Source of the DNA: Saprospiraceae bacterium
GTDB lineage: Bacteria; Bacteroidota; Bacteroidia; Chitinophagales; Saprospiraceae
Length of the DNA stretch: 41,102 bases
Assembly: GCA_020631545.1 (NCBI GenBank)
Contig: JAHDHB010000006.1
Coordinates: 1 to 41,102 of the forward strand
Direction of reading: 5' to 3'
The translations under genes and the position numbers were made by a program. Below, piece by piece: positions 9,881 through 36,715 of the stretch (positions are counted from its first letter, which is position 1; the number at the start of each line of letters is the position of its first letter). A model generated the notes under the pieces. It saw nothing but the letters and a program-made list of their open reading frames with translations. It was not told where the DNA came from and searched no databases.

Positions 9881-9933
9881 ATGTTTTTGGGTATCTTGTT
9901 TGGTAATTACTTAGAAATCTCCCATAAATTGTA

Positions 9934-9941
9934 TATCTTTG
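9934..9941 (+). promoter_or_regulatory. Promoter -7 element of the acidic-repeat envelope protein gene
   Basis: TATCTTTG matches TAnnTTTG exactly and lies 30 bases before the ATG at 9971, giving a short leader of about 20 nt. Confidence 0.5.
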
Positions 9942-9970
9942 GCTATATAACTTAAATCTTCGGAGACGTT

Positions 9971-11667: not shown

Positions 11668-12396
11668 TTATTCCTTAGAAATAAAAGTTGTAAAAACGGT
11701 ATTTAATTTTTTTACCGCTAGGGATATTGGGAGATCAACAAAAGCATAGCGCATTTTATTCTTTTTGGAAAGTCCTTCTTGACGGCTTCGAAAAACTACG
11801 TGAGAAGGGAATGGAGGAGAGAGCGTGCCCATGTGCTTATCTTTTGTAATAAAAGAAGTGTAAGCCGTACGCTTATCACCGTCTACCATGTATTGCCCGA
11901 TATAGGTCATCAAAGAGTACTTACCTTCTAAAGAGATGGAAGGATCCACTTCAAGAGCAGAATTCAAAAAATAGCCTTGTTGTATATTTTGACTGTATTG
12001 CTCCGTTTCTGTATCGTACATAAAATAGACCTTACAGAAATCGAAATATTCAGGATCAGAAAAATACTTTACAATTTCTTGATTTAAGGAATCTCTTTCA
12101 AAGAGTGTTTGTTTTAGTTGAGCTTGGTAAGTTGCCTGCTTGGAAACACTTGCCTCCTTTGCCAGCTTTTCTAAAGCCGAAATTTTCAAATGTTGCGTTT
12201 TTAAACGGACAATTAGTATACCCTCCTTTAATTGTCCAATTCTTTTTTGAGCAAGTTGTAGTCGAGTCTCTTTAGCCCTAGTCTTCTTCGACTTAGGTGT
12301 TACTTTTTCCTCAGGTAAATCTAAAGTATCTTCAACCTGTGCAGCTAGAAAAAAAGGAATAACCAGAAAACATAATATAATTGAATACCTTGACAT
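11668..12396 (-). CDS. Exported protein of unknown function
   Basis: The 242-residue product has a clear Sec signal peptide (MSRYSIILCFLVIPFFLAAQ, cleavage expected after the second Ala). The next 110 residues are basic and helical, with a likely coiled coil (KETRLQLAQKRIGQLKEG and QLKQTLFERDSLNQEIVKY). The C-terminal half is a globular mixed region with conserved-looking aromatic residues (DFCKVYFMYDTETEQY, GKYSLMTYIGQYMVDGDKR). No family is recognised. It is convergent with the acidic-linker protein and divergent from moxR, whose promoter region it shares. It could be an envelope partner of the Bat system because of this position, but that is speculation. Confidence 0.85.
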   Translation of the reverse strand: MSRYSIILCFLVIPFFLAAQVEDTLDLPEEKVTPKSKKTRAKETRLQLAQKRIGQLKEGILIVRLKTQHLKISALEKLAKEASVSKQATYQAQLKQTLFERDSLNQEIVKYFSDPEYFDFCKVYFMYDTETEQYSQNIQQGYFLNSALEVDPSISLEGKYSLMTYIGQYMVDGDKRTAYTSFITKDKHMGTLSPPFPSHVVFRSRQEGLSKKNKMRYAFVDLPISLAVKKLNTVFTTFISKE

Positions 12397-12445
12397 AAAT
12401 TACCGTTAATAATTGGTTAAAAGAAAGCAAAAGCCCTTATTTTGC

Positions 12446-12466
12446 CACATTAATGTGTTATTTTTG
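12446..12466 (+). promoter_or_regulatory. Perfect palindrome joined to the moxR -7 element
   Basis: CACATTAATGTG (12446-12457) is a perfect 12-bp palindrome. One base later comes TATTTTTG (12459-12466), an exact TAnnTTTG match. The palindrome therefore occupies the promoter spacer of the moxR/Bat locus, in the divergent region shared with the minus-strand exported protein. A repressor site is a reasonable reading; no protein is known. Confidence 0.45.
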
Positions 12467-12639
12467 CAGCGTTTTTGCCAGAAAACCACACGTTTTGTAA
12501 CGAATATTCGAATGAAAATTCAACTCTATATAGCTTCGCTGGTGGCGTAGCCTACTAGGAAAAGAATATTCATGGTAGCAAAAATACACCTTTATAATTG
12601 TTAGGCTATAAAATTGTGCCATTTTTAAATACAGACTCC

Positions 12640-13638
12640 ATGCATACGTCAGTTGATATACAAGCATTAAACGAAAAAATCTATATTGAAAGTGCCTTTG
12701 TCGAGACACTTTATACTGAAACAAGCAAAGTCATTGTTGGCCAAAAGCACATGATCGAAAGGCTGATGTTAGGACTTTTGGCTCAAGGGCACGTACTCTT
12801 AGAGGGGTTACCTGGTTTAGCAAAAACATTAGCCATAAAAACCTTGTCTACTGCGGTAGATGGTCAGTTTAGTCGTATTCAGTTTACACCAGATCTATTG
12901 CCGGCGGATATTCTAGGAACCATGATTTACAACCCGGCTAAAAATGAATTTACCGTCCGTAAAGGACCCATTTTTGCCAATTTTATCCTAGCAGATGAGA
13001 TCAACCGGGCTCCGGCCAAAGTACAAAGTGCTTTGCTAGAGGCAATGCAAGAGCGCCAAGTAACGATTGGCAAAACAACCTATAAACTGGAAGAACCCTT
13101 TCTGGTATTAGCTACGCAAAACCCGATTGAGCAAGAAGGAACTTATCCACTTCCTGAAGCACAGGTGGATCGTTTTATGTTGAAAGTGAAAATCACTTAT
13201 CCTTCAAAAGAAGAAGAGCGTGAAATCATGCGCCAAAACATCCTTGGTAATTCCTTCAGCAAAGTGGAGAAAGTAGTAAAACCTGCCGAAATTATGAGAG
13301 CTCGAAAGACGGTGAGGGAAGTTTATATGGATGAAAAAATTGAACGCTACATCATTGACATCGTTTTTGCAACAAGGAACCCTTCGGATTATGGTTTAGA
13401 AGAGTTATCTACACTTATAAGTTATGGCGCATCTCCTAGGGCTAGTATTAACTTGGCCAGAGTCTCTAAAGCTTATGCTTTCTTAAAGAGAAGAGGCTAT
13501 GTCATTCCTGAAGATGTTCGTTCTATATGCCATGATGTGTTGCGCCACCGTATTGGTATAACTTACGAGGCAGAAGCAGAGAATATCACTCAAGAAGATA
13601 TTATCAATAAAATCTTAGACGCCGTCGTTGTGCCTTAA
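12640..13638 (+). CDS. MoxR-family AAA+ ATPase
   Basis: A 332-residue chaperone-like ATPase, the usual first gene of Bat loci, thought to act on VWA-domain partners. Walker A is GLPGLAKT (residues 56-63). Walker B is FILADEINRAPAK, sensor 1 is ATQNPIEQEGTYPLPEAQVD with RFML after it, and the lid region follows. The ATG at 12640 (MHTSVDIQALNEK) is preferred over a TTG at 12598, which adds 14 residues with no family likeness. Downstream lie a DUF58 protein and two VWA proteins, the standard MoxR partners. The promoter at 12459 should drive it with a leader of about 165 nt. Cytoplasmic, expected to form a hexamer. Confidence 0.95.
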   Translation: MHTSVDIQALNEKIYIESAFVETLYTETSKVIVGQKHMIERLMLGLLAQGHVLLEGLPGLAKTLAIKTLSTAVDGQFSRIQFTPDLLPADILGTMIYNPAKNEFTVRKGPIFANFILADEINRAPAKVQSALLEAMQERQVTIGKTTYKLEEPFLVLATQNPIEQEGTYPLPEAQVDRFMLKVKITYPSKEEEREIMRQNILGNSFSKVEKVVKPAEIMRARKTVREVYMDEKIERYIIDIVFATRNPSDYGLEELSTLISYGASPRASINLARVSKAYAFLKRRGYVIPEDVRSICHDVLRHRIGITYEAEAENITQEDIINKILDAVVVP

Positions 13639-15489: not shown

Positions 15490-16356
15490 ATGGACACGAA
15501 GGAACTACTTAAAAAAGTACGGAAAATAGAGATTAAGACGAAGGGTCTGAGTAGGCACATCTTCTCAGGAGAATATCATAGTGCCTTCAAGGGTAGAGGT
15601 ATGTCTTTTAGCGAAGTTCGGAATTATCAATATGGTGATGATGTTCGAAATATTGATTGGAATGTAACAGCCAGATACAATGAGCCTTACGTCAAAATAT
15701 TTGAAGAAGAACGTGAACTAACGGTCATGCTCTTGGTTGACATTAGCAAGTCTGCCATTTTTGGTTCTACAGCCCAGATGAAGAGCGAAATATTAACGGA
15801 GATATGTGCGGTATTGGCCTTTTCGGCAACGACGAACAACGATAAAGTCGGGGTTATTTTATTTTCCTCAAAAATTGAATTGTTTATTCCTCCAAAGAAA
15901 GGTAAAAGACATATTCTCAGGATTATACGTGAGTTGATTGAACATGAACAGGACGAAAAAGGTACGGATATTGCAAAAGCTTTGCGTTATTTCAATAATG
16001 TGATGAAGAAGCGTTGCATTGCCTTTGTTCTTTCTGATTTTATGGCAAAGGATTATGAAGACCCCTTGCGCATTGCTTCGAGGAAGCATGACATTACAGC
16101 CATTCACCTTTTTGATAAGGCAGAAAAAAAATTGCCAAACGTTGGTTTACTTAGAGTAGAAGATCCTGAAACTGGTGAAATGCTTTGGATTGATACTTCT
16201 TCTCGGTCAACGAGAGAGAAATACGAAGCATGGTTTGAAGAAAATTTTAATTATTTTAAAAATGTTTTTAATAAAAGTGGAGTGGATACGGTGAGTATAG
16301 AAACCAGTGAATCCTACGTCAAAGCCCTTATTCGGTTTTTCAAAAAACGCCACTAA
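15490..16356 (+). CDS. DUF58-domain protein
   Basis: A 288-residue cytoplasmic protein, the regular companion of MoxR ATPases. The DUF58 signature is complete: GMSFSEVRNYQYGDDVRNID followed by WNVTARYNEPYVKIFEEERE. The remainder is a VWA-like fold with a MIDAS-type DISKS motif near residue 87 (MLLVDISKS) and an FVLSDFM strand later. The protein is thought to couple MoxR to the membrane VWA proteins BatA and BatB. It lies 112 bp after the DUF3298-like gene and 53 bp before the next gene, so it is likely in the same transcript. ATG 15490 starts directly before the conserved LLKKVRKIEIKTK segment. Confidence 0.95.
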   Translation: MDTKELLKKVRKIEIKTKGLSRHIFSGEYHSAFKGRGMSFSEVRNYQYGDDVRNIDWNVTARYNEPYVKIFEEERELTVMLLVDISKSAIFGSTAQMKSEILTEICAVLAFSATTNNDKVGVILFSSKIELFIPPKKGKRHILRIIRELIEHEQDEKGTDIAKALRYFNNVMKKRCIAFVLSDFMAKDYEDPLRIASRKHDITAIHLFDKAEKKLPNVGLLRVEDPETGEMLWIDTSSRSTREKYEAWFEENFNYFKNVFNKSGVDTVSIETSESYVKALIRFFKKRH

Positions 16357-17476: not shown

Positions 17477-18484
17477 ATGTTTGAACTGACCAATATAGAA
17501 TTTGCTAACCCAATTTTTACCATCCTACTCGGCCTTCTGCCGATATTAGGGATGTACTACTTTTATCAAGGAAAAAAGAGACATGCCTCCTACAAACTTT
17601 CAAGCCTAAAAGCCTTCGAAGGAAGTAGTTCCTTGCGTGGCAAACTTCGATTAATTTTACCACTATTGCGATTGTTAGCCTTAGGGGCGCTTATCATTGC
17701 TTTAGCTCGACCTAGAGCTACCCTCAAGGAAGAGGAAGTAAAGGCAGAGGCCGTGGATATTATTTTGGTTACTGACTTGTCTAGCAGTATGTTAGCAAGG
17801 GATTTCAAACCAGATCGATTAGAAACGAGCAAAGAAGTTGCTATTGATTTTATAGAAAAACGAGAATATGATCGACTAGGACTTACTGTTTTCGCTGGAG
17901 AAGCTTTTACCCAATGCCCCTTGACGACGGATCATGATGTGGTCAAGGAATTTGTTAGTTCTTTAAAATGTGGATTGCTTGAAGATGGAACGGCGATTGG
18001 TCTAGGCTTAGCTTCTGCCTTGAATCGATTGAAGGAAAGCGAAGCCAAAAGTAAGGTCGTTATTTTATTGACAGATGGAGAAAATAATGCAGGGGAATAT
18101 GTCAAACCCTTAACCGCTGCGGAAATCGCTAAAGAATTGGGTGTCAAAGTGTACACTATTGGTATTGGAACCATTGGTCAAGCCTATGCCCCTATTGGAC
18201 GAAGGAATGACGGGCAATACGTTTTCGGTTATACTCGCGTAAATATTGACGAAGACTTACTCAAGCAAATAGCAGGTCAAACGGGTGGCCGCTACTTCCG
18301 CGCGACAGACAGAAAACAGCTTGAAGAAATATACGAGGAGATTGATCGCCTTGAGAAAACCAAAATTGAAGTAACGACGATAAAGCGCTATACTGAAATG
18401 TTTTATCCTTGGTTAATTCTAGGCTTAATTTTACTAGGAATCGAAGTTTTATTACGATACACCATTCTTAGAACCATTCCATAA
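17477..18484 (+). CDS. batA: BatA: membrane VWA-domain protein
   Basis: The 335-residue product has two N-terminal membrane segments (about 13-29 and 57-78), a von Willebrand A domain (about 90-295) and a C-terminal transmembrane helix (about 310-330). The MIDAS metal site is intact: VTDLSSSM (DxSxS), a threonine in the CPLTTDHD stretch, and LTDGENN. It pairs with BatB, which has the same design. In Bacteroides fragilis bat genes were linked to oxygen tolerance and in Leptospira to oxidative stress, with debated roles. ATG 17477 gives the usual FANP(I/W) opening segment. It follows the BatD-like gene by 101 bp and precedes batB by 108 bp. Confidence 0.92.
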   Translation: MFELTNIEFANPIFTILLGLLPILGMYYFYQGKKRHASYKLSSLKAFEGSSSLRGKLRLILPLLRLLALGALIIALARPRATLKEEEVKAEAVDIILVTDLSSSMLARDFKPDRLETSKEVAIDFIEKREYDRLGLTVFAGEAFTQCPLTTDHDVVKEFVSSLKCGLLEDGTAIGLGLASALNRLKESEAKSKVVILLTDGENNAGEYVKPLTAAEIAKELGVKVYTIGIGTIGQAYAPIGRRNDGQYVFGYTRVNIDEDLLKQIAGQTGGRYFRATDRKQLEEIYEEIDRLEKTKIEVTTIKRYTEMFYPWLILGLILLGIEVLLRYTILRTIP

Positions 18485-18592: not shown

Positions 18593-19621
18593 ATGTTTCG
18601 TTTTGAACATCCAGAATATTTGTATTTGCTACTAGGCATTCCTGTCTTGCTGATTTTCTTTGCTATAACTAGAGCATTGAAACGAAAGGCAATGGAAAAA
18701 CTAGGCGATCAATATATTATTGATCAATTGATGCCAAGCAAATCTAAGTATAGAGACACGATCAAATTTTTCATCATTACACTTGCTTTTGCTTTGCTTT
18801 GTATCGCTTTTGCCAATCCACAAATGGGTGCCAAAAGAGAAAAGGTGAAACGAAAGAGTGCCGATATATTCATTGCGCTCGATGTCTCCCACAGTATGAT
18901 GGCACAGGATATTCGCCCGAATCGAATGGAAAGGGCCAAGCAGTTTATGCACAAACTCATTGACGGTCTAAAAGGAGAACGAATAGGAACCATTATTTTT
19001 GCAGGAAATGCCTATTTGCAAATGCCGTTGACGACAGACTACTCTGCTGCTCAGCTTTTTATAAAAAGCGCTAGTCCGAAAATGGTTCCCTCCCAAGGAA
19101 CAGCCATTGGGGAAGCGATAGACATGGCCTCCGATGCTTTTGAGCAAGATAATAAATATCACAAGGCCTTAATCATCATCACGGATGGAGAAAATCACGA
19201 TGAAGCAGCCGTTGCTTTAGCGAAGGAGGTAGGAAAAGAAGGTATGCTCGTTTTTACCGTAGGTGTAGGTACGCCTTCCGGTGGTCCTATTCCAACTTCT
19301 TCTTTTGGTAGAAATGAATACAAAAAAGACAAACAAGGAAATCTCGTCATTTCGAAATTGAATGAAATAATGCTGACAGAGCTTTCTTCGGCTGCCAATG
19401 GCGAGTATTACAATATTGCAGAAGGCGACGAAATCATTGAATCGCTCCGAAAGCGCATTGAAAAGTTGGAAAAACAAGAATTCGAACAACGGTCTTTCAC
19501 GGAGTTCGAAAGCTACTTCCAATACTTTTTAGCATTAGCTATTTTATTATTGATTTTCGAATTTATGATGGCTTATAGAAGAAACGAATCTAGAAAAAAA
19601 CGAGATCTTTTCGGCATCTAG
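18593..19621 (+). CDS. batB: BatB: membrane VWA-domain protein
   Basis: The 342-residue partner of BatA has the same layout: N-terminal membrane helices (about 10-27 and 58-76), a VWA domain (about 88-300) with a MIDAS motif LDVSHSM and ITDGENH, and a C-terminal helix (about 310-330) followed by a basic tail. The start MFRFEHPEYLYLL is typical of BatB. The stop codon TAG ends at 19621, and its last base is also the first base of a 32-bp repeat found again at the end of batD. In related loci batC would follow at once, but here it comes 5.5 kb later, so the operon is broken or stretched. Confidence 0.92.
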   Translation: MFRFEHPEYLYLLLGIPVLLIFFAITRALKRKAMEKLGDQYIIDQLMPSKSKYRDTIKFFIITLAFALLCIAFANPQMGAKREKVKRKSADIFIALDVSHSMMAQDIRPNRMERAKQFMHKLIDGLKGERIGTIIFAGNAYLQMPLTTDYSAAQLFIKSASPKMVPSQGTAIGEAIDMASDAFEQDNKYHKALIIITDGENHDEAAVALAKEVGKEGMLVFTVGVGTPSGGPIPTSSFGRNEYKKDKQGNLVISKLNEIMLTELSSAANGEYYNIAEGDEIIESLRKRIEKLEKQEFEQRSFTEFESYFQYFLALAILLLIFEFMMAYRRNESRKKRDLFGI

Positions 19622-19652
19622 TAACGTTGGCTTCAGCCGACAAGTTGCGTTA
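19621..19652 (+). repeat. 32-bp repeat, copy 1, abutting the batB stop codon
   Basis: The 32 bases starting GTAACGTTGGCTTCAGCC and ending AAGTTGCGTTA are identical to 28398-28429. The ends TAACG and CGTTA pair, and GGCTTCAGCC folds as a small inner hairpin. The repeat begins on the last base of the batB stop codon. Confidence 0.85.
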
Positions 19653-19785
19653 ATAGTTCCTTATCCCTAGGTACTTGCGACTAGCACATCGTGAACAAAT
19701 TATCGATAATTTTAGAGTATCTATAAGTTATTAGCTTTCATCCTTCTTCTAGTAAGCTATTTTTGAGCGAAGCGACGAAAAAAAC

Positions 19786-20021
19786 TAGTGTCTGAACGAA
19801 AAAGGCAACTTTTAGAAAAAAAGTAGAGATTTCGCCATCTGGACAATGCGGGAAGGTATAGCGCTTAGCCTTGGCCTGATGGCTTAAAACATCTCCTAAC
19901 TGCCTAATATTATATTCCTTGCTCAAGTCGTCAGGCCAGACCATGCCACAAGGCAACCCCGGCACTGTCCAGACGACAAGGCCAGATCATTGCTTTTATC
20001 ACCTTTTTCGTTCAGGCACTA
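19786..20021. mobile_element. MITE-like element with 20-bp terminal inverted repeats
   Basis: The left end 19786-19805 (TAGTGTCTGAACGAAAAAGG) and the right end 20002-20021 are inverted repeats matching at 19 of 20 positions. Inner segments also mirror each other about the same centre near 19904: TCTGGACAATGC (19838-19849) against GCACTGTCCAGA (19962-19973), and TGGCCTGATG (19872-19881) against the CGTCAGGCCA stretch near 19929-19938. The 236-bp element can thus fold as one long interrupted hairpin and encodes no transposase. This is the build of a miniature inverted-repeat transposable element. A short ACTAG occurs outside both ends (left flank overlapping the terminal repeat), a weak target-duplication candidate. 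Confidence 0.7.
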
Positions 20022-20083
20022 ACTAGCCGCTTGTGGAATACGTATCGTGAGCGCATTCACTATAAGTGAAAACAGGTATTCAG

Positions 20084-20231
20084 AGGGCAACCATGAAGGT
20101 TTGCCCCTACGGATTTCAGGGTAAAGGTAGTCGTCTGCATCTATAAAAATGAAGCGATAAACTCTAGAAGAAAGTCTCCCGAAAACAAAAACCTAAACCC
20201 TGAGTAGGGGCAATCCTTCATGGTTGCCCTA
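20084..20231. repeat. 148-bp palindromic element with 27-bp arms
   Basis: The arm at 20084-20110 (AGGGCAACCATGAAGG, then TTTGCCCCTAC) pairs with 20205-20231 at 26 of 27 positions. Weaker pairing continues inward (TCAGGGT against ACCCTGA). It lies 62 bp after the MITE-like element and has no reading frame. It resembles REP-type or non-autonomous elements dispersed in many environmental bacteria. Confidence 0.7.
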
Positions 20232-20309
20232 GGAAGGAAGGTAATTCCTGGCATCTGACTCCTATTTTGTAGCGCAGTGATCAAAATTCTTAGAAGCTGT
20301 CCAAATCAA

Positions 20310-20996
20310 CTAATTCCAATCGAGCCCCAAGGTAACAGAAACGGTATTGTTGGTCAGCTCCAACGTCGGAGGATAATCCGTTAAAGAACCTAGATTAAAA
20401 AGGGGCGTTTGTCCCATGACTTCAAAAGAATTATTTCCATCATCATCCTTAAAAACAATGGAAAAATTAGTGTTTTGCGGTAAAAAGCAAGTACTAGTAC
20501 ATGACCAGTAACTAGGGAGGTCATTTTCAGTAAAATTATAATGAATGTTACCATCGTTGGTGATAAAATTGTTATTACCATCAGTAATGGCAAAACTAAG
20601 ATCTGGGCCATCAGAAGGATCCCAACAGTTGTTACAAGAAGGAGGAAGATTTGGAAGACTGTTTATCGTTATCGTTGCGATTCGTCCAATAACATTATTG
20701 TTATTAGAAAGATTAATGCTTTCTTCTTGGGTAGAAGTGCCATCATAGTTAGTGGCCGTTAAGGTTATGGTATAGCGCCCACCAGTTTCATAGACATGAT
20801 AAGGATTGGGCTCTACAGAAGATTTTCCATCGCCGAAATCCCAATGAAAAGACAAGGCATTTTTGGAATTATTAGAAAAATAGACCGCACAAGGCGCCAA
20901 GCAATTTTGATTAGACATTGTAAAACTTGCTTCTGGCGGGTCTTCGGTACAAGCAATTAAAGTAAGTAAAGTAAAAACGAATAAGGATAAACGCAT
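20310..20996 (-). CDS. PKD-domain lipoprotein
   Basis: The 228-residue product starts at ATG 20996 (MRLSLFVFTLLTLIACTED); an upstream TTG at 21029 is less likely. The lipobox TLIAC places the lipidated cysteine at residue 16, so the protein is membrane-anchored on the outer side of the inner membrane or on the outer membrane. A PKD domain follows (about 25-95) with the signature FHWDFGDGKSS and a YTITLTATNYDGTS strand. The C-terminal half is a beta domain with a DLSFAITDGNNN segment, paired cysteines (SCNNC and CTSTC) and an FKDDDGNNSFEVMG calcium-site-like loop. This arrangement is common in Bacteroidota surface lipoproteins. It is the only minus-strand gene within the Bat locus, divergent from the next operon. 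Confidence 0.88.
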   Translation of the reverse strand: MRLSLFVFTLLTLIACTEDPPEASFTMSNQNCLAPCAVYFSNNSKNALSFHWDFGDGKSSVEPNPYHVYETGGRYTITLTATNYDGTSTQEESINLSNNNNVIGRIATITINSLPNLPPSCNNCWDPSDGPDLSFAITDGNNNFITNDGNIHYNFTENDLPSYWSCTSTCFLPQNTNFSIVFKDDDGNNSFEVMGQTPLFNLGSLTDYPPTLELTNNTVSVTLGLDWN

Positions 20997-21109
20997 AAAA
21001 TATTTTATTTTTTGTAGAGTTGAGGTCAAATTTAGAAAATAATATTAACTTTATGTTTAGGAAATAGTAAAAAACTACATTAAAAACTGCAATAAATTTT
21101 TCTTTTGTA

Positions 21110-21907
21110 ATGGAATTTATTTTATTAGATGTTGATGTATCTCAAATATTCGACAAGATTGAGTCAAGTCCAATTTATAAATTTTTTCTTTTATTGACAG
21201 TAATTCTTACGATCCTTGGAGCATATGCTAAGGCGAATGGAAACGAAAATCCAAGGACTGTTTGGTATACTTCTTTAGGCTTGTTGTTTTTGATTTGTGC
21301 AGGTACTTTTTTAGTAATTTATTTTGATGTAAATGCAGATAATAAACATGAAAACTCTTTAAAAACTGCTGCTGTAAAAGTTTTAGAATACAAATCAACA
21401 TTAGAACATGATCAAGAATTGGAGAATATCCTATTAAATATGTCTCCACTAGATGAAAATCGATTTGTTCGAGAAGTGAGAAAAAAAGATTCCTTGAAAC
21501 TGGTTGATTTTGTGAATAAAAGGTTGGTAGATAGTGGAAAAAAAATGGATCAAGGTCAAAAACAGACTTTGATTTCTAGTGTTTTGCAAACAAGAAAAAT
21601 GGAGGGATTAAAAGATGAAATGAGTATAGACTTTAAAATGAGAAGAGGTATATCCAAAATTTTGAAAGAATTTTCAAGAAGGAAAGATCTTTCAGGAGCA
21701 GTAAGGCTGTTAGTAAAATGGGGAATAGATCAGAATACGGCATTATATTCTTTTGATGGAAAAAATGGAATAAAACAACGCTTGTCAACTACTATCAAAA
21801 CATATTTGATGGAAAAAATGTACAACATTAATCCTTCATCAAATATTACTATAGCCTTTATTGAATACAACTATCCAAAAATATCAAGTTTGGGATTTCA
21901 AAAATAA
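21110..21907 (+). CDS. Two-helix membrane protein of unknown function, first gene of a three-gene operon
   Basis: The 265-residue product begins with a short segment (MEFILLDVDVSQIFDKIE) and two hydrophobic helices (about 23-40 and 52-71: FFLLLTVILTILGAYA and WYTSLGLLFLICAGTFLVIY). The remaining 190 residues are charged and helical, probably cytoplasmic, with regions such as LEHDQELENILLNMSPLDEN. No domain is recognised. It is followed after only 9 bp by the next gene and is clearly co-transcribed with it. Base composition is more AT-rich than the Bat genes on either side, consistent with recent acquisition, but I have not measured it. Confidence 0.75.
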   Translation: MEFILLDVDVSQIFDKIESSPIYKFFLLLTVILTILGAYAKANGNENPRTVWYTSLGLLFLICAGTFLVIYFDVNADNKHENSLKTAAVKVLEYKSTLEHDQELENILLNMSPLDENRFVREVRKKDSLKLVDFVNKRLVDSGKKMDQGQKQTLISSVLQTRKMEGLKDEMSIDFKMRRGISKILKEFSRRKDLSGAVRLLVKWGIDQNTALYSFDGKNGIKQRLSTTIKTYLMEKMYNINPSSNITIAFIEYNYPKISSLGFQK

Positions 21908-21916
21908 TCGTACAAC

Positions 21917-22471
21917 ATGAAGCATAACTTTATTTTCGTTCTTTTTATAACATTAGCATCGTCATTACAGGCTCAAGAACCAATTCCTAATGACGAAAAA
22001 ATAATAGAGATAGCAAGAGGGGAATTGGAAATTTTAGAAAGGTATATTACCATAATTTCAGATGTATCTGAAACGTCTTATACAGTCAAACAAGACATGA
22101 TAGATGGAGCAATGGAACACTTTAGACCTGGCTCCAAAATACAAAAATCGAATTGTAGAACACGTCAAGTAGAAACACTTGAGGCAAGAACCTATTTTGA
22201 GCATTTAGCAGATTTAGGCCATAAATATGATACTATAAGGATAAACTTTTTGCCGAACAGTGTTGGGGAAATTATTAGTACAGGGTATAACAAATACAAA
22301 TTGATAGGTGAAATAAAACAAAAATTCATCGGTTACATGAATGGTGTCGTGAAATATTCAGACACTACATTTAAAGATGTTGAGCTTTTTCTTCAATACA
22401 ATGCTGAATTTGATGAATGGCGGATACTTATTGGAAATATTTCCGTAAAATTTACGAGTAAGTGCAAATAA
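21917..22471 (+). CDS. Exported small protein, second gene of the three-gene operon
   Basis: The 184-residue product has a signal peptide (MKHNFIFVLFITLASSLQAQ, cleavage expected at QA-Q). The mature part has an N-terminal helix (IIEIARGELEILERYITIIS) followed by alternating strands, ending ELFLQYNAEFDEWRILIGNI. The helix-then-sheet order and size resemble NTF2-like or cystatin-like folds, and the first 150 mature residues of the next gene show the same layout, so the two may be related. This is inference from pattern. Gaps to the neighbours are 9 and 10 bp. Periplasmic or surface location expected. Confidence 0.75.
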   Translation: MKHNFIFVLFITLASSLQAQEPIPNDEKIIEIARGELEILERYITIISDVSETSYTVKQDMIDGAMEHFRPGSKIQKSNCRTRQVETLEARTYFEHLADLGHKYDTIRINFLPNSVGEIISTGYNKYKLIGEIKQKFIGYMNGVVKYSDTTFKDVELFLQYNAEFDEWRILIGNISVKFTSKCK

Positions 22472-22481
22472 ACAGTGTCCT

Positions 22482-24476
22482 ATGAAAAAAGCATTATTTT
22501 TATTGCTTGCTGCTTTGTTTTTATTTATAGACTGTTCTGCTCAAGAGAATCTAGAAAGAAAGAAGTTGAAAGACTTTTTAGACATCTATAAAAGAAGATT
22601 GAACTATTTTTATATGGTGAATCTTGATGCTGATCAAAAAGACATACGTGATAGATTTGAAGATCTTTTTACGAGCAAAGAATGTAACGTTCTTAATGAC
22701 TTTTCTGATCTTAGTAAGAAGTATATGCCAATTCCTATGTATGTTAGAAATACGAAAATAGAGTTTAAAAACATTGGAGCAGAGCTAATTTTTGATACTG
22801 ATCAATTTTATTACGATAAACAAGACAATAAATATAACGTTGTAATAAAAAAAATGCTTAAGAAAAATGGTGATGGGGAGAATTGGAAAATTTTCTGGCT
22901 AAACTTTGAAATTATTGATAATAATGCTGATTTAAAAATTCGTAAAATTACAAGGGATGTAGAACCCAAAGACGATGACGGAGATCTCGTAGTTAATGAA
23001 CGTGATGGTTGTCCCACAGAAAAAGGTTCAGCCTTAACAAACGATGGTTGTCCTTTCAAAGGAAAAGATGAGGACAATGATAAATTTTACGATGATGAAG
23101 GTGATGATTGTCCTGGTGTTTTTGGCTTAGTAAGGGGATGTCCTGATACGGATAAAGATGGAATCATAGACAAAGAAGATAGTTGTCCTACACAAAAAGG
23201 ATTTCTTAGGTTTAAAGGCTGCCCAGATACAGACGGTGATGGATTTCCTAATCATGAAGATGCTTGTCCAGGAGAATATGGTAAAGTAAAAGGATGTCCA
23301 GATCCCGATAAAGATAACCTAGTCGGTGACGAAGATAGATGTCCTGACGCATTTGGTAAACCAGAAACAAATGGCTGTCCAGATACGGACGGTGATGGAA
23401 TTCCTGATGGTGTAGATGACTGTGAAACAGAGTACGGCCCAGCAAACACAAAAGGATGTCCAGATGCTGACGGAGACGGAGTACCGAATAAGGAAGATCT
23501 TTGCGATGAAGTAAAAGGCCCAGCAGAGACGCAAGGCTGCCCAGATACCGATAAGGACGGCGTGATAGATATACGGGACAAATGTCCGAGCGATTACGGA
23601 GAACCACGATTGGGAGGCTGTCCGGATAGTGATGGTGACGGTGTTATTAATTCAGAAGATGATTGTCCTGGTGAATGGGGAGACAAGGAGAATGGTTGTC
23701 CCAAAAAAGCCAAGGACTATAGAAAAGAAGGAAAAAAAGTTGAAAAACAAAGCCGCCAACGCGTGGAATTTTTAATTTCAGGTAGTGCCGTTTTTACGGA
23801 GTTTCCAGAGGCAGAAACGAATAACTTTGTATTGTGGGAAGGAAGAAACCAAGGATTCAAGGAGAATGGAAGCATGATAAACTATGGATGGAGTGCAGGA
23901 TTGGGACTTCATTTTAATCCTACAAAAGTTTGGGGCTTAGGATTTAGGGGAGGCTACTACCAACATTTCTTTGATCATAAAGCTTGGAATAGAAATTTGG
24001 CCATCTATCATTATGACAACAACATAAATTACAAGGCAATCAGTACGGATCCAGCCACTTATGAAGGAGTTTATGGCTTGTTTTCTACCTTTTTTGGAAA
24101 TTTAGATGGGCCTGCCCGATTCAAATTGGAGCCTTGGATTGGATTTTTGAAAGGCGATTTGAAGGAATCGGAAATTTCTACTCGAATCGACTATGACAAC
24201 CAAAACGGTAAAAATATTGGCTTGAACATTAGTTATCCTTTTGCGTTGTTGTACGGAGGAGAGGCAGCAATGAGTTTTCGCGTCAGCAATAATTTTAGAC
24301 TTGGGTTTGCTTGCTCTTTCTGGTTTTCAACATTAAATGTAGAGGATCAGAGGATAGATTTTGACACACAGGATGATTTTATCCTATACAATGAGCTTCA
24401 ACTAAAAACCATTCAACCCTCCTTAAACCTAATCTTTCCCTTGAATGCTAAATCTCAGAATAAAAAACAAACGTAG
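22482..24476 (+). CDS. Outer-membrane protein with thrombospondin type 3 repeats and C-terminal beta-barrel
   Basis: The 664-residue product has a signal peptide (MKKALFLLLAALFLFIDCSA). Residues about 22-160 form an N-terminal domain like the preceding protein. Residues about 165-405 are about eight thrombospondin type 3 repeats, each with a DTDGDG-type calcium loop and a GCP cysteine (for example CPDTDGDGIPDGVDDC). Residues about 425-655 are strand-rich with many Gly and aromatic residues (SAGLGLHFNPTKVWGLGFRG), suggesting a small outer-membrane barrel. Such repeats often join a barrel to an OmpA-like peptidoglycan domain, but here the order is reversed and no OmpA domain exists. It ends the three-gene operon. 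Likely a calcium-stiffened surface or periplasmic spacer. Confidence 0.85.
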   Translation: MKKALFLLLAALFLFIDCSAQENLERKKLKDFLDIYKRRLNYFYMVNLDADQKDIRDRFEDLFTSKECNVLNDFSDLSKKYMPIPMYVRNTKIEFKNIGAELIFDTDQFYYDKQDNKYNVVIKKMLKKNGDGENWKIFWLNFEIIDNNADLKIRKITRDVEPKDDDGDLVVNERDGCPTEKGSALTNDGCPFKGKDEDNDKFYDDEGDDCPGVFGLVRGCPDTDKDGIIDKEDSCPTQKGFLRFKGCPDTDGDGFPNHEDACPGEYGKVKGCPDPDKDNLVGDEDRCPDAFGKPETNGCPDTDGDGIPDGVDDCETEYGPANTKGCPDADGDGVPNKEDLCDEVKGPAETQGCPDTDKDGVIDIRDKCPSDYGEPRLGGCPDSDGDGVINSEDDCPGEWGDKENGCPKKAKDYRKEGKKVEKQSRQRVEFLISGSAVFTEFPEAETNNFVLWEGRNQGFKENGSMINYGWSAGLGLHFNPTKVWGLGFRGGYYQHFFDHKAWNRNLAIYHYDNNINYKAISTDPATYEGVYGLFSTFFGNLDGPARFKLEPWIGFLKGDLKESEISTRIDYDNQNGKNIGLNISYPFALLYGGEAAMSFRVSNNFRLGFACSFWFSTLNVEDQRIDFDTQDDFILYNELQLKTIQPSLNLIFPLNAKSQNKKQT

Positions 24477-25163
24477 CTGCTTGGGAAATATGGAGCCTAG
24501 AAAAATCGACCTGTACAAGCCTCAAAGGTAGAACGAACAAGCTATTCGAAGGGATTAGGTGTTTTTCTTAAAGGAAGTCATTGGTTGCGGTGCATCTGAG
24601 GGAAGGTTGTGGTGTTGGTGGTCGCGATGTAGACGAGAACATTCGCCTGATACTTTAGGTGTATGAGAAACGCAGTATGTTGCTAGTTCGCAAAATCCAC
24701 GCTCCAAACGTACCACGAGGCTCATCCCTTTTGGTTAAGATTTAAATGACTGGAATCTGATGAAGCTACTAGTATCGCTGCTTTAGAGGCTTGTACTGAT
24801 CGAGAAAAATCACGATAAAATTTCAGGGATTTTATGGAGGAATACAACGGCTAATCATTTCACCCTTTCAGGGTTTTTGGGTTGCCTAACTGAATTACTA
24901 ACTATAATCCTGTCAACCTTTCAGGGTTCACTTCAAATTTGGATAAATAAGCCGAGTAAATCCCGAAGAGATGTAAGGATTATGGAAAAATAGAAGAACA
25001 ACTTCTGGGCAAGCGACTATTGGAGAGAAACGAAGGCGGATAGATCGTTAAAAAAGGGTTAAAGTGAGTATTTGATGTATCAAGTTATACCATTTTATCA
25101 TTAAATTACTAGGGAATTATCGCTTTGAGAATTTCAAGGGCGAAAAATAGATTTTGGAGAAAG
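24477..25163 (+). other. Non-coding stretch before batC
   Basis: About 690 bp without a credible gene. It holds two related short palindromes (see 24862-24928), a 7-bp hairpin (ATAAAAT, 7-base loop, ATTTTAT near 24820) and no clear promoter motif. Together with 19622-20309 it brackets the inserted genes. Confidence 0.5.
24862..24928. repeat. Pair of short palindromes (ACCCTTTCAGGGT type)
   Basis: ACCCTTTCAGGGT (24862-24874) and AACCTTTCAGGGTT (24915-24928) share the core CCTTTCAGGGT and stand 53 bp apart. They look like two copies of a short dispersed repeat. Confidence 0.5.
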
Positions 25164-25952
25164 ATGAAGAGATATTTTTTGACGAGTATTTTGATGATGG
25201 GCTTTGTTTTTAGCCTATTAGCTCAAGGAGAAGCCGCATTAATTCGTAGCGGAAATAAATCGTACACTTCGAAGAATTACACCGTTGCCGAAGATAATTA
25301 TAGGAAGGCTTTGGATGTTAATGCAACGAATTTCAAAGGGGCTTATAATTTAGGAAATAGCGTTTTTGAACAAGAGCGGTATGAAGAAGCCGTGAAGCAT
25401 TTTGAAAACGCGGCGGTCTTGGCTAAAGACAAGGAATCGAAAGCAAAATCTTTTCATAATTTAGGAAATGCTTTTCTAGGATTGCAAAAGTACCAAGAAA
25501 GCGTAAATGCTTACATTGAAGCTTTAAAGAACAATCCTAAAGACATGGAAACCAAGTATAACTTGGCTTACGCTCGTACGAAATTAAAGGAACAACAGCA
25601 GGATCAAGATCAGGAAAAGCAAGATGAGGATCAAGAGAATAAAGAAGATCAGGATCAAGAGAAGGAAGACGAAAATAAGGAGGAGCAAGAACAAAAAGAC
25701 CAAGAGCAAAAAGAACAGGAGGAACAGAAAAAGCAGGAACAACAGCAGCAGAAAGATCAAGAACAACAACAGCAAGAGCAAAAGGAGCAGCAAGAACAGA
25801 ACAAGCAAGACCAGCAAAAGGCGCAACCGCAAAATATGAATCTACAAGAAGCCATGAAGATCTTAGAAGTCATGGACAATGAGGAGCAAAAGGTACAGCA
25901 GAAAATGCGCAAAGGAACAGGAAAACGGAATAAGTCTGATAAGGACTGGTAG
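25164..25952 (+). CDS. batC: BatC: TPR protein with Gln/Glu/Lys-rich tail
   Basis: The 262-residue product starts at ATG 25164 (MKRYFLTSILMMGFVFSLLAQ, a signal peptide); a TTG at 25125 would place extra residues before it. Three tetratricopeptide repeats follow (about 22-135), visible as AAYNLGNSVFEQERYEEAV-like and FHNLGNAFLGLQKYQESVNA units. Residues about 145-225 are almost only Gln, Glu, Lys and Asp, with a short conserved-type end (LQEAMKILEVMDNEEQKVQQ). TPR plus acidic tail is the normal BatC design; such proteins are periplasmic protein-interaction parts of the Bat machine. It is followed by two BatD-like genes and batE. Confidence 0.88.
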   Translation: MKRYFLTSILMMGFVFSLLAQGEAALIRSGNKSYTSKNYTVAEDNYRKALDVNATNFKGAYNLGNSVFEQERYEEAVKHFENAAVLAKDKESKAKSFHNLGNAFLGLQKYQESVNAYIEALKNNPKDMETKYNLAYARTKLKEQQQDQDQEKQDEDQENKEDQDQEKEDENKEEQEQKDQEQKEQEEQKKQEQQQQKDQEQQQQEQKEQQEQNKQDQQKAQPQNMNLQEAMKILEVMDNEEQKVQQKMRKGTGKRNKSDKDW

Positions 25953-26141
25953 CGGTAAAGAACGGAGGAGAAAGGAAAATGGAGAATTTTTGTGGGCTTT
26001 GGTGATAATTTTGAAGAATAGAGGCGTATTTTTGCGCTCATGTTTATATGATTAATGCTGCTCTTAAGCGATCAAGGGTTTACGAGAAGTATGACTAGCT
26101 AATGAGGTAAAACTTAAACTTTTAATTAGTAAATATTAACT

Positions 26142-26624
26142 ATGAACAAGCGGATCATCATGTGGGTGTGTTTATTGCTACCGACATGGATTTTGGCTCA
26201 ACAGGAAATCCGTTTTACTGTCCAGATTTCGGGGGGAGATACTATTGGACTCTATGAACATCTTGATATACAGTATAAAATAGAAGGAACAGATTATAAG
26301 GATTTTCAGCTTCCCGAGTTTTCGGGCTTCGACATCGTTTCTGGTCCTTATCAATCTACGTCTATTTCCTATGTAAATGGAGTTATGTCTAGAGAGACAA
26401 CCTATACCTATCGCCTTGTAGCAGAAGAGGAAGGTACTTTTGTTTTTCCTCCTGCAAGCATTTTGGTTGCTGAAGAGTTACTAGAAACTCAAGTTGTAGA
26501 GATTACGGTTGTCGAAAATGGGATTAGCAAACCAAAACAACTGAAAGAAAAGAAGTTTAGAACTCCAATGCCGGCCCCTTTACCAAGAGAACGATTTAAA
26601 GACACAAAAATCTATTCGATTTAA
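26142..26624 (+). CDS. Short BatD-like exported protein
   Basis: The 160-residue product has a signal peptide (MNKRIIMWVCLLLPTWILAQ) and one BatD N-terminal Ig-like domain: FTVQISGGDTIGLYEHLDIQ, then LPEFSGFDIVSGPYQST, SYVNGVMSRETTYTYRL and EEEGTFVFPPASILV. The same series (gain-of-NFLVLDQGSGTNMS, IINGVVSRSSSYTYTL, KKVGKFYIRPAVAKI) opens the full-length batD 4 bp downstream, so this is a one-domain paralogue. It has no membrane anchor and ends KIYSI. Spacing shows cotranslation with batD. It may be a duplicated ectodomain retained as a separate periplasmic subunit. Confidence 0.85.
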   Translation: MNKRIIMWVCLLLPTWILAQQEIRFTVQISGGDTIGLYEHLDIQYKIEGTDYKDFQLPEFSGFDIVSGPYQSTSISYVNGVMSRETTYTYRLVAEEEGTFVFPPASILVAEELLETQVVEITVVENGISKPKQLKEKKFRTPMPAPLPRERFKDTKIYSI

Positions 26625-26628
26625 GCTT

Positions 26629-28401
26629 ATGTCCATGAGGAATCCCACTAGGGAAGAAAGAACACCCGTATTGAGAAAATTACTGTTATTGATTGGGCTG
26701 GTTAGTCTTTTGGCTGTTCCTACTTGGGGTCAACGAGCCAAAGTCGACCTCAAAGTGAAGGTAGATGCCAAACAAGTGGTTTTAGGTGATTATTTTACGG
26801 CTACCTTCGTTGTCGAAAATGGGGAAGCTAGCTCCTTTAAACCACCAAATTTTGCCAATTTCCTAGTACTGGATCAAGGTTCTGGTACGAATATGTCTAT
26901 TATAAATGGTGTGGTATCAAGAAGCAGCAGCTATACTTATACCCTTCAACCCAAGAAGGTAGGTAAGTTTTACATTCGTCCCGCTGTGGCCAAAATAGGC
27001 CGAAAAACCTACAAAACTAAGTCTATACAAATAGAGGTTGTAAAAGGAAAACAAGGCAGCCAAAGTGATTTAGCTACTAGATTGGAAGATGGAACGGGTA
27101 TTTTTATCCGAGCAGAATTGGATACTTCAAAAGCTTACTTTGGCCAACAAATCCCCGTTACTTACCGCATTTATTCTAATGTTGGAAACTTTCAGCATGA
27201 TGTAATTGAAGATCCTGAATTTCCTGGCTTTTATGCAGAGCGCATCCGTCGTTTCTACAATGATGTACAAGGAGAAGTTATCAAAGGGGTTTCCTACAAA
27301 ACACAAGTGATCCGACGCTATGTGCTTTTTCCTCAAAAAACAGGCGTCTTAAAAATACCACCACTTACCGCCCGTGTAGCGGTTCCCCTTCGCCAACGCT
27401 GGCAAACTTATCGAACCGTTATTCAAAGTGAACCTCAAACTATTACAGTAAATTCCTTGCCGGAGAATGGAAAACCGGACAATTTTTCTGGTGCCGTTGG
27501 AAATTATGAAATGGTAACTAGGCTTGGAAACTCGACGGTGACCACGGATGATGCGATTACCTTTCAAATGGAAATCCTAGGAGAAGGAGACATCAAGCAA
27601 ATCCAAGCACCGGACTTAGGTTTACCGAAGGATTTGTTTGAGGTTTATGAGCCTACTTCCAACGAGGAATTTTATGAGCAAGATGGTTTACGAGCAGGAA
27701 AAAAGGTATTTGAATACATGATTCTTCCTAAAAAACCAGGTAATTATAAATTTACACCAGCCTTTTCCTATTTCCATGCAGATGAATCTAAGTATGTGAC
27801 ACTGAAGGATCAAGTCTATGATATTGATGTAGGAATGGGAAGTAATCCGAATGCTTCTGGTCGGATAAAAAAGGAAACAGCTACAGCGAAAAAGGAAATA
27901 CGGTTCTTAAAAACAAAAACCTCGCTTTCAAATAGTAGCCATCACTTTGTTGGTTCCGCTTTGTTTTGGGGCTTGTTTGCCATTCCATTTATTTTTCTTT
28001 TAGGAATTGCTAGGGCTAAGCGCAATCAGATCTTGGATAACAACATTGATGAAGTTATCTTCAAGCAGAAAAGAGCGAACAAGGAAGCATTAAAACGACT
28101 TTCTAAAGCTAAAAAATTGCTCGACAATAAGCAAAATAAGGAGTTTTACAAGGAAATCTCTGAAGCGCTTTGGGGTTATATTGGGGACAAATTGGACATG
28201 CCTGTTTCCGAACTTTCTAGGGATAATGTTCAAGAAAAATTGACCACTAAAGGCGTCAATTCTGTACAAATAGAAGAGCTTCTTGGGCTTTTTAATACCT
28301 GTGATATGGCCTTATTTGCTTCAATGGAAAATGAAGAAGAACGTCAAAGTACTTATCAGAAAGCAATGGAGGTGATTTCTGAAATGCAAGAGCAACTGTA
28401 A
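26629..28401 (+). CDS. batD: BatD: membrane-anchored oxygen tolerance protein
   Basis: The 590-residue product has an N-terminal signal (about 14-34: RKLLLLIGLVSLLAVPTWGQ), three or more Ig-like ectodomains (about 35-400, with the GVVSRSSSYTYTLQPKKVGK and YRIYSNVGNFQHDVIEDPEF stretches), a transmembrane helix (about 440-460: SALFWGLFAIPFIFLLGIA) and a helical cytoplasmic tail with KEISEALWGYIGDKLDMPVS. This is the regular BatD plan. ATG 26629 is 4 bp after the short BatD-like gene; an ATG at 26635 is possible. The stop TAA overlaps bases 2-4 of the second 32-bp repeat copy. Confidence 0.9.
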   Translation: MSMRNPTREERTPVLRKLLLLIGLVSLLAVPTWGQRAKVDLKVKVDAKQVVLGDYFTATFVVENGEASSFKPPNFANFLVLDQGSGTNMSIINGVVSRSSSYTYTLQPKKVGKFYIRPAVAKIGRKTYKTKSIQIEVVKGKQGSQSDLATRLEDGTGIFIRAELDTSKAYFGQQIPVTYRIYSNVGNFQHDVIEDPEFPGFYAERIRRFYNDVQGEVIKGVSYKTQVIRRYVLFPQKTGVLKIPPLTARVAVPLRQRWQTYRTVIQSEPQTITVNSLPENGKPDNFSGAVGNYEMVTRLGNSTVTTDDAITFQMEILGEGDIKQIQAPDLGLPKDLFEVYEPTSNEEFYEQDGLRAGKKVFEYMILPKKPGNYKFTPAFSYFHADESKYVTLKDQVYDIDVGMGSNPNASGRIKKETATAKKEIRFLKTKTSLSNSSHHFVGSALFWGLFAIPFIFLLGIARAKRNQILDNNIDEVIFKQKRANKEALKRLSKAKKLLDNKQNKEFYKEISEALWGYIGDKLDMPVSELSRDNVQEKLTTKGVNSVQIEELLGLFNTCDMALFASMENEEERQSTYQKAMEVISEMQEQL

Positions 28402-28429
28402 CGTTGGCTTCAGCCGACAAGTTGCGTTA
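28398..28429 (+). repeat. 32-bp repeat, copy 2, overlapping the batD stop codon
   Basis: Identical over 32 bases to 19621-19652. Here the batD stop codon TAA is bases 2-4 of the repeat, so both copies begin exactly at a Bat gene terminus. Confidence 0.85.
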
Positions 28430-28471
28430 GTCTGAACCCTATTAGTATGTAAGAAGTCAAGTCTTGCACAG

Positions 28472-28544
28472 GTATAGAGTAAAGAGACTTTTTGTTTTTC
28501 CGAAGGAAAAACTTACGTCATATGTCAGTCTCTCTACGCTATAC
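28472..28544. repeat. Palindromic element, copy 1 (17-bp arms and inner palindrome)
   Basis: Outer arms 28472-28488 (GTATAGAGTAAAGAGAC) and 28528-28544 (GTCTCTCTACGCTATAC) pair at 15 of 17 positions. An inner palindrome TTTTTCCGAAGGAAAAA lies at 28495-28511. A related copy with the same layout is at 36607-36663. Confidence 0.75.
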
Positions 28545-28565
28545 TATCTACCCTCTACTATAATA

Positions 28566-28578
28566 GCGGCTCTGCCGC
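28566..28578. repeat. Short GC-rich palindrome before batE
   Basis: GCGGC-TCT-GCCGC, a 5-bp GC stem with a 3-base loop in an AT-rich region, followed by GTTA as in the 32-bp repeat (GCGTTA end). It is probably another dispersed repeat; it is not followed by a T-run. Confidence 0.45.
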
Positions 28579-28626
28579 GTTAGGATCTAACCGGTCTATA
28601 ATTTTGAGTAGCGAAAACCAAAATAC

Positions 28627-29430
28627 ATGAATCAACGAATGGTGGCATTGAATTTTTTAGCTCAAGTCCAAGGAAAAAAAGCATGGGGTATCATGATGTT
28701 CCTGTTATTCGGATATATTTTGGCAGGAGCCAATGATCTTCAAGTCGAATTTCAAAAAGGAAATCAGTATTACGAAAAAGAGGATTTTGACAAAGCCATC
28801 ACGGCCTATGAAAGTGTTTTGCAAAAAGACGTTACTTCCAAAGAGTTACACTACAACCTTGGCAATGCCTATTTCAAAAAACAAGCACTTGGGAAGGCGA
28901 TTTTGAACTATGAAAAAGCTTTATTACTAGCGCCTCGTGATGCCGATGTCTTGCACAATTTGGAAATTGCAAAAGCAAGAAGATTGGATGAAATTAGTGC
29001 TCTTCCTCCATTTTTCCTTTTTAGTTGGTGGCAAGGATTGAGAGATAGCCTCTCTCCTACTGCTTGGGGAATTCTTTGCTTATTAGCCTTATGGCTCGCG
29101 GCAGGAGGTTTTGCTGGTTGGTTGTTTTTTACCATAAGACGTCAGAAAAAGTGGAGTTTTCTAGGAGGTCTCACTAGCTTTGTGCTGATGCTTTTATTTC
29201 TTTCATTAGCCTTTTCCCGCCTATCCTATGTCAAAGACAGTGGGCAAGCGATACTCATCGAAAAACAAAATAAACTGTATAGTGGTCCAGATACTGATAG
29301 CCCAGCTATTTTGACGATACATGAAGGGACTAAAATGGAAATTTTAGACCAAATTGGAGATTGGCAAAAAATACGTTTGGTGAATGGTGAACAAGGCTGG
29401 CTTCCTGTAGAGGCCTTGGGGAAAATTTAA
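28627..29430 (+). CDS. batE: BatE: TPR and SH3-domain membrane protein
   Basis: The 267-residue product has an N-terminal hydrophobic segment (about 20-37), two TPR units (about 42-115: FQKGNQYYEKEDFDKAITAY, LHYNLGNAYFKKQALGKAIL), two membrane helices (about 140-162 and 175-197) and a bacterial SH3-like domain at the C-terminus (about 210-267, ending GEQGWLPVEALGKI). TPR plus SH3 is the standard BatE design and the SH3 part may bind peptidoglycan or a partner. It closes the Bat gene set, 225 bp after batD with repeats in between. Start 28627 or 28639. Confidence 0.88.
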   Translation: MNQRMVALNFLAQVQGKKAWGIMMFLLFGYILAGANDLQVEFQKGNQYYEKEDFDKAITAYESVLQKDVTSKELHYNLGNAYFKKQALGKAILNYEKALLLAPRDADVLHNLEIAKARRLDEISALPPFFLFSWWQGLRDSLSPTAWGILCLLALWLAAGGFAGWLFFTIRRQKKWSFLGGLTSFVLMLLFLSLAFSRLSYVKDSGQAILIEKQNKLYSGPDTDSPAILTIHEGTKMEILDQIGDWQKIRLVNGEQGWLPVEALGKI

Positions 29431-36571: not shown

Positions 36572-36606
36572 AAGGAGTTGTTCGCGACAATAACTGGGAG
36601 TAGAAA

Positions 36607-36663
36607 GTATAGAGTAGATAGATATTATTTTTCCGCAGGAAAAATTGTCTCTCTACTCTATAC
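36607..36663. repeat. Palindromic element, copy 2
   Basis: Arms 36607-36623 (GTATAGAGTAGATAGAT) and 36647-36663 (GTCTCTCTACTCTATAC) plus an inner palindrome TTTTTCCGCAGGAAAAA at 36628-36644. The layout and sequence match copy 1 at 28472-28544, with a shorter spacer between inner and right arm. Confidence 0.75.
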
Positions 36664-36704
36664 CCTCTACCCTCTACCCTCTACTCTTTACTCTTTACTC
36701 TTTA
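36663..36704. repeat. Tandem 7-bp repeat tract
   Basis: Three copies of CCCTCTA (36663-36683) are followed by three copies of CTCTTTA (36684-36704). The tract lies right after palindromic copy 2 and 11 bp before the stop codon of the minus-strand LOG gene. It is a purine/pyrimidine-asymmetric microsatellite, not a CRISPR. Confidence 0.85.
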
Positions 36705-36715
36705 CAGGACTACGG

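Follow-up and report, generated by a model that had tools for sequence, protein, structure and literature searches.

Stop codons of about twenty genes lie within a GTAA-tagged, REP-like hairpin repeat in the genome of a Saprospiraceae bacterium

The window considered here, that is, the whole stretch of 41,102 nt that was analysed, belongs to contig C257 of a Saprospiraceae bacterium whose draft genome comprises 6.38 Mb in 674 contigs and is 93.6% complete. It carries an operon of bat genes in which two copies of a 32-nt sequence, GTAACGTTGGCTTCAGCCGACAAGTTGCGTTA, lie at the ends of batB and batD, at 19621-19652 and 28398-28429. The features of the region are as follows.

17477..18484, plus strand: batA-type VWA protein with a BatA N-terminal domain
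18593..19621, plus strand: batB, VWA and BatA N-terminal domain, 342 aa; the orthologues in two same-genus relatives (G001 and G002) end at the equivalent residue
19621..19652, plus strand: REP-like repeat copy 1, tail type A (CGTTA); the G of its GTAA tag is the last base of the batB TAG
19653..25124, no strand assigned: extra segment of ~5.5 kb between batB and batC, missing from the compact operon of same-genus relatives
25125..25952, plus strand: batC-type TPR protein
26142..26624, plus strand: short second BatD-domain gene, directly upstream of batD; a counterpart is found in most relatives searched
26629..28401, plus strand: batD, BatD domains, 590 aa; its stop is the TAA of the repeat
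28398..28429, plus strand: REP-like repeat copy 2, tail type A (CGTTA); its tag TAA (28399-28401) is the in-frame stop of batD
28627..29430, plus strand: batE-type TPR and SH3 protein, beginning 225 nt after batD, beyond repeat copy 2

The initial annotation was right about both the sequence and the coordinates of the two 32-mers, and none of 100 shuffles yielded such an identical pair by chance. Its further claim, that the repeat had landed twice in the same codon-level place, holds insofar as both copies touch the stop codons of Bat genes, but the registers differ: the batD copy supplies the stop itself (offset 0), whereas the native batB stop TAG (19619-19621) shares only its G with the repeat, whose TAA forms the next triplet (offset 3). 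The two 32-mers are members of a family of about 100 hairpin repeats and carry no signal specific to bat genes. With 106 copies genome-wide, ~0.7 would be predicted per 41 kb, and two in 41 kb are unexceptional.

In the bat operon of G002, a distance of 16 nt separates the batB stop from the start of the next frame, and the batD stop overlaps, as ATGA, with the frame that follows it; in the focal genome 5.5 kb separates batB from batC and 225 nt separates batD from batE. Since the relatives are compact at these points, the repeats lie at two junctions that were opened in the focal lineage, yet the insert is not bracketed by them. The segment at 19653-25124 contains a minus-strand PKD-domain gene, a gene for a TSP3-repeat protein and another hairpin repeat pair. 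It had been suggested that the two copies mark the recombination ends of an inserted segment, and in favour of this both stand at gene ends where the relatives show compact junctions; the suggestion is nevertheless very improbable and did not survive the comparison, as the insert lies between batB and batC, whereas copy 2 comes later, after batC and the two batD genes and before batE, and more than 100 further copies occur in the genome. Other repeated sequence was also observed in the window. At 20079-20110 and 20204-20235 a different hairpin repeat, tagged GTAG, forms an inverted pair (GTAGGGGCAA...CCTTCATGGTTGCCC); its first 13 bases match 39 times in 0.91 Mb of the focal genome. Related low-complexity stretches (GTAGAGAGTAGAGAG / TCTCTACTCTATACCCTCTAC) occur near gene ends at 28471-28558 and 36600-36705, and similar runs also follow one repeat copy on contig C403.

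A search of the 6.38 Mb genome with the core AACGTTGGCTTYAGCCGACAWGTTG, at up to 3 mismatches, returned the 106 copies, and a reversed-pattern control returned 0. The statistics of the family refer to 105 aligned copies on 0.71 Mb of contigs that were chosen because they bear copies. The left edge is sharp, consisting of GTAAC with the G present in 98 of 99 copies and random flank before it, and after GTTG the copies continue with one of two tails, A (CGTT...) or B (TTCC/TTCT). There are 55 solitary copies; adjacent pairs are head-to-head (HH) in 20 cases, TT in 5 and HT in 5. The HH pairs carry their tags outside, 17 of the 20 combine one A tail with one B tail, and in every one of them at least one of the two tags is encoded by the element itself. 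A minimal dimer of this type measures ~73 nt and folds at -46.5 kcal/mol. A more elaborate arrangement is seen at L074 (C105, 3663-4660), a tandem array of ~231-nt units, each bounded by an HH pair, with four B+/A- pairs plus one extra A-.

The hairpin has a stem of 11 pairs, with 96.9% of cells paired. Changes on both sides of a pair affect 13 cells against 2.0 in shuffles (0 of 500 shuffles reach 13). Compensatory changes are exemplified by G10-C17, which is A-U in 6 distinct sequences, and by A4-U25, which is G-C in 5. Because all copies come from one genome rather than from independent species, this covariation speaks for a constrained hairpin and not for a function. Nearly all copies carry GTAA, the GTAG form being confined in the focal genome to 5 covarying GTAGC sequences. 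The family is a REP-like, non-autonomous hairpin repeat with a conserved 5' GTAA tag.

The relation of this tag to stop codons extends over the genome. Gene calls were simple, taking ORFs of at least 100 aa and settling overlaps by length. On this basis the TAA of the tag is the in-frame stop of an ORF (120-2153 aa) in 20 of the 105 copies, batD among them, and 11 further copies, including that of batB, begin 3-10 nt past a stop. Outside the repeats, a stop is found at only 5 of 151 non-coding GTAAC sites and 38 of 1485 non-coding GTAA sites (2.6-3.3%; Fisher 1e-5 and 1e-11, respectively). Offset 0, with its 20 copies, exceeds the mean of offsets 3-10 (11 copies in total) about 15-fold. The polarity is strict, with 31 stops at no more than 10 nt from a tag and 0 near a tail (p about 1e-9), and none of the 105 tails has a facing stop within 45 nt. 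The two Bat positions could have been attributed to chance had the genome-wide distribution borne no relation to stop codons, but with 20 of 105 exact stops, 11 more 3-10 nt after one and none reversed, the opposite was found. A common repeat with 106 copies is indeed likely to produce some coincidences; even so, that the repeat touches two stop codons without any relation to stops is a practically negligible possibility, given the 2.6-3.3% among free GTAA and GTAAC sites and a Poisson P of about 6e-17 against the density at neighbouring offsets. The repeat-stopped genes, which by resemblance we take to encode a glycine dehydrogenase C-terminus and nitroreductase-like, polyphosphate kinase-like and carbamoyltransferase-like proteins, among others, have no evident function in common.

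Among known systems the closest are the GTAG REPs (PMC3733652; REP/RAYT, PMC2817692). They share with the focal family an imperfect palindrome of 20-40 nt, high copy number and intergenic location, a 5' tetranucleotide at the foot of the hairpin, a stem whose 3' half has additional bases, predominantly head-to-head dimers with tags outside, and a position near gene 3' ends where the tag gives stops. GTAG REP termini 'often provide' a TAG stop, and both the preference of REPs for gene 3' ends and dimers of this kind have been described (PMC3733652). The focal family differs in that the tag is GTAA in nearly all copies, giving TAA and not TAG, and in that no RAYT flanked by the family was found. 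It is thus a short, high-copy hairpin with head-to-head dimers and an intergenic 3'-end bias with a stop-supplying tag, but nearly all copies lack a GTAG/GTGG tag at the hairpin foot, and no Y1 (HUH) transposase flanked by the same repeat was found; failing on tag and cognate RAYT, it is filed as a REP variant rather than as a canonical member. Stop-supplying GTAG REPs have already been published (PMC3733652), and what is new here is the GTAA-tagged variant, a tag without mention in PMC3733652, PMC8266576, PMC6006769 and PMC12306157.

The pairs recall REP doublets, BIMEs and REPINs in that two copies in inverted orientation, their tags facing outwards, flank a short spacer, but here the tails CGTT and TTCC mark the two arms, and more than half of the copies are single. 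The ends of IS200/IS605 elements (IS608, ISDra2) likewise have a hairpin beside a fixed tetranucleotide, and their published target tetranucleotide flanking the left end provides a possible model for insertion beside GTAA; in contrast, no transposase lies between focal copies, and the focal tetranucleotide pairs into the stem. Integron attC sites also begin at gene stops, have TAAC...GTTA ends and act as a folded single strand. They are about 57-141 nt long, whereas the focal repeat has ~31 nt and forms dispersed singles and HH dimers instead of cassette arrays; length and arrangement are what set the two apart.

The assembly contains three Y1_Tnp (PF01797) genes, at L196 (C62) 9899-10550, L123 (C656) 11800-12650 and L195 (C570) 15850-15990, none with a focal-family copy within the stretch read; five PF01797 genes in two Lewinella-type genomes are likewise without the family repeat in the stretch read. 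Beside the three genes there is one hairpin family each, namely GTAGCCCTGTGCGAAAGCGCAGGG, GTAAAYCCTGAARGGRTG (45 copies genome-wide) and a GTAG-type repeat, of which the family with 45 copies is GTAA-tagged and the other two are GTAG-like. As each gene adjoins a different hairpin family, none is the demonstrated partner of the focal repeat. In their motifs (DHVH/DHIH, WQ, Y[IV]xNQxxHH) the three are similar to class 1.2 of PMC6006769, a class listed there without REPs. At the protein level, three genomes of the focal genus each contain dozens of occurrences of a C-terminal domain that looks dockerin-like to the eye, with GDxNxDGxVNAxDRxxTWNNRN...LP repeats and with last residues that follow a fixed pattern (L064 near 15434, L079, L091).

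At up to 2 mismatches the family is absent from 40 relatives, two of the same genus included, and a strict 27-mer has no match in GTDB contigs. A relaxed pattern retrieved a homologous family from the GTDB contigs of Neolewinella aquimaris and Lewinella sp. JB7 and nothing from viral contigs; in an order-wide draw the pattern occurred in 4 of 299 genomes, namely the focal one and 3 from a single other genus. At up to 3 mismatches, Neolewinella aquimaris has 41 copies of the homologous family and Lewinella sp. JB7 has 42. These repeats have the same stem-loop core CGTYGRCTTYAGYCGACAWG and bulge, GTAGC/GCTG being the covarying counterpart of GTAAC/GTTG, but are GTAG-tagged, have more variable stems and, in some copies, supply TAG instead of TAA stops. 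In 8 of the 58 copies examined the TAG terminates an ORF that reaches 100 aa or more; some of these ORFs may be spurious, as the genomes look GC-rich.

The association with stops might have arisen if the repeats had truncated the genes they entered. The C-termini of repeat-stopped proteins differ in length from those of relatives mostly by 0 or +/-1, which is not distinct from 11 control genes, and because the ends match same-genus orthologues as often as those of the controls do, the repeats did not generally shorten proteins. Two genes are exceptions, one of them batD, which is 6 and 8 aa shorter than its two same-genus orthologues, while batB ends at the same residue as in G001 and G002. 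The idea that the repeat supplied the stop can therefore be kept in the literal sense that the batD stop is the TAA of the repeat, but not in the sense that a new protein end was made, the orthologues ending at or near the same residue.

These protein ends bear on the question of how the copies came to lie where they do. The element could bring its own GTAA and insert near gene ends regardless of sequence, creating early in-frame stops of which the near-terminal ones survive. In favour of this, every HH dimer has at least one tag that the element itself encodes, and in GTAG REPs the tag belongs to the recognised hairpin (PMC8266576). Frame-blind insertion inside gene ends would, on the other hand, give about two read-throughs for each stop, whereas 2 ORFs read through a copy and 20 are stopped by one; together with the conserved protein ends and the 15-fold peak at offset 0, this makes blind insertion of an element-borne stop improbable. 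The free GTAA sites of the genome provide a further comparison. They lie at a stop or 3-10 nt after one in a ratio of 38:14, and the repeats, at 20:11, do not differ (p=0.46), as would be expected if insertion took place at a GTAA that was already there. Matching protein ends, few read-throughs and the free-site ratio thus jointly favour insertion at pre-existing GTAA with loss of the copies that hit genes. Target choice alone is nonetheless insufficient, because 11-40 nt after a stop there are 5 copies against 56 free GTAA sites, so that repeats are over-represented at 0-10 nt (p=7e-5), and selection or an RNA function must add to it.

Such a function could even account for the whole pattern, if insertion were random and those copies were retained by selection that act as a 3' element of the mRNA, with a sense hairpin holding the stop in its basal stem and affecting translation termination or serving as an exonuclease barrier. 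The hairpin RNA is stable in sense (-12.5 kcal/mol, z -3.0) and not in antisense (-4.6, z 0), the latter being weaker because the antisense strand lacks the conserved G-U pairs; besides the 31:0 polarity, single copies in tandem contexts are oriented with the upstream gene 19:6 (p 0.015), and copies are depleted between divergent genes. In E. coli, ribosomes reportedly stall at REPs that lie no more than 15 nt from a stop (Liang et al. 2015, as cited in PMC12306157). It is nevertheless unlikely that retention for an RNA role is the main cause, since ~70% of the copies have no same-strand stop within 10 nt, the genes manage without the repeat in both genomes of the same genus and in 38 more from the family and order, the host genes have no evident common function, and free GTAA sites already show an offset ratio like that of the repeats. 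Neither copy in the window was among the terminator-like sites, the tails being CGTTAATAG and CGTTAGTCT, so that intrinsic (Rho-independent) termination was set aside, and at 19000-29000 of the window no Rfam 15 match exceeded the gathering score. By analogy, an effect of the hairpin downstream on termination, mRNA decay or translation is plausible, and selection on the sense hairpin near stops may add to placement.

The preferred reading, to which a probability of roughly 0.6 is given, is that dispersed REP-like repeats spread by a Y1-type mechanism to existing GTAA sequences, the batB and batD copies being survivors at stops. A single-strand mechanism of the IS200/IS605/RAYT-type Y1 (HUH) enzymes would spread the copies, and a GTAA already in the target would become, or stay as, the left edge of the element. 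Most GTAA sites lie within genes, where insertions would be lost; a GTAA formed by 'xxG TAA' at a stop would be harmless, which would make stops the preferred surviving sites and cause the tag to be read as a stop. The batB copy (register 3) and the batD copy (register 0) would be two such survivors. Equating tag with target is borrowed from the logic of IS200/IS605, as known REPs carry the tag as a guide and are cleaved at CT (PMC8266576). The joined flanks of 75 clusters, compared with ~0.9 Mb and some further loci of the same genome, yielded no clean empty site, the sole junction-spanning match (L069) falling in another repeat family; between species, one genome each was compared.

The GTAG-tagged kin raise the possibility, tentative and on balance doubtful, that the tag is a switchable address, a change of its fourth base to A together with the stem partner having retargeted the family from GTAG and TAG stops to GTAA and TAA stops. 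If true, a mobile repeat would find safe sites at gene ends by way of a sequence that contains a stop codon. The tag has been discussed as a cleavage guide, and altering it shifted the cut site in one system (PMC8266576); the putative natural change from GTAG to GTAA could test the REP tag as a target guide, a question that is open in TnpA(REP) biochemistry. For annotation, it is a warning that the stop codons of ~20 genes in this genome fall inside repeats. For the biology of such elements, the family offers a clean, countable case of a mobile hairpin repeat with stop codons as landing sites and with strict polarity.
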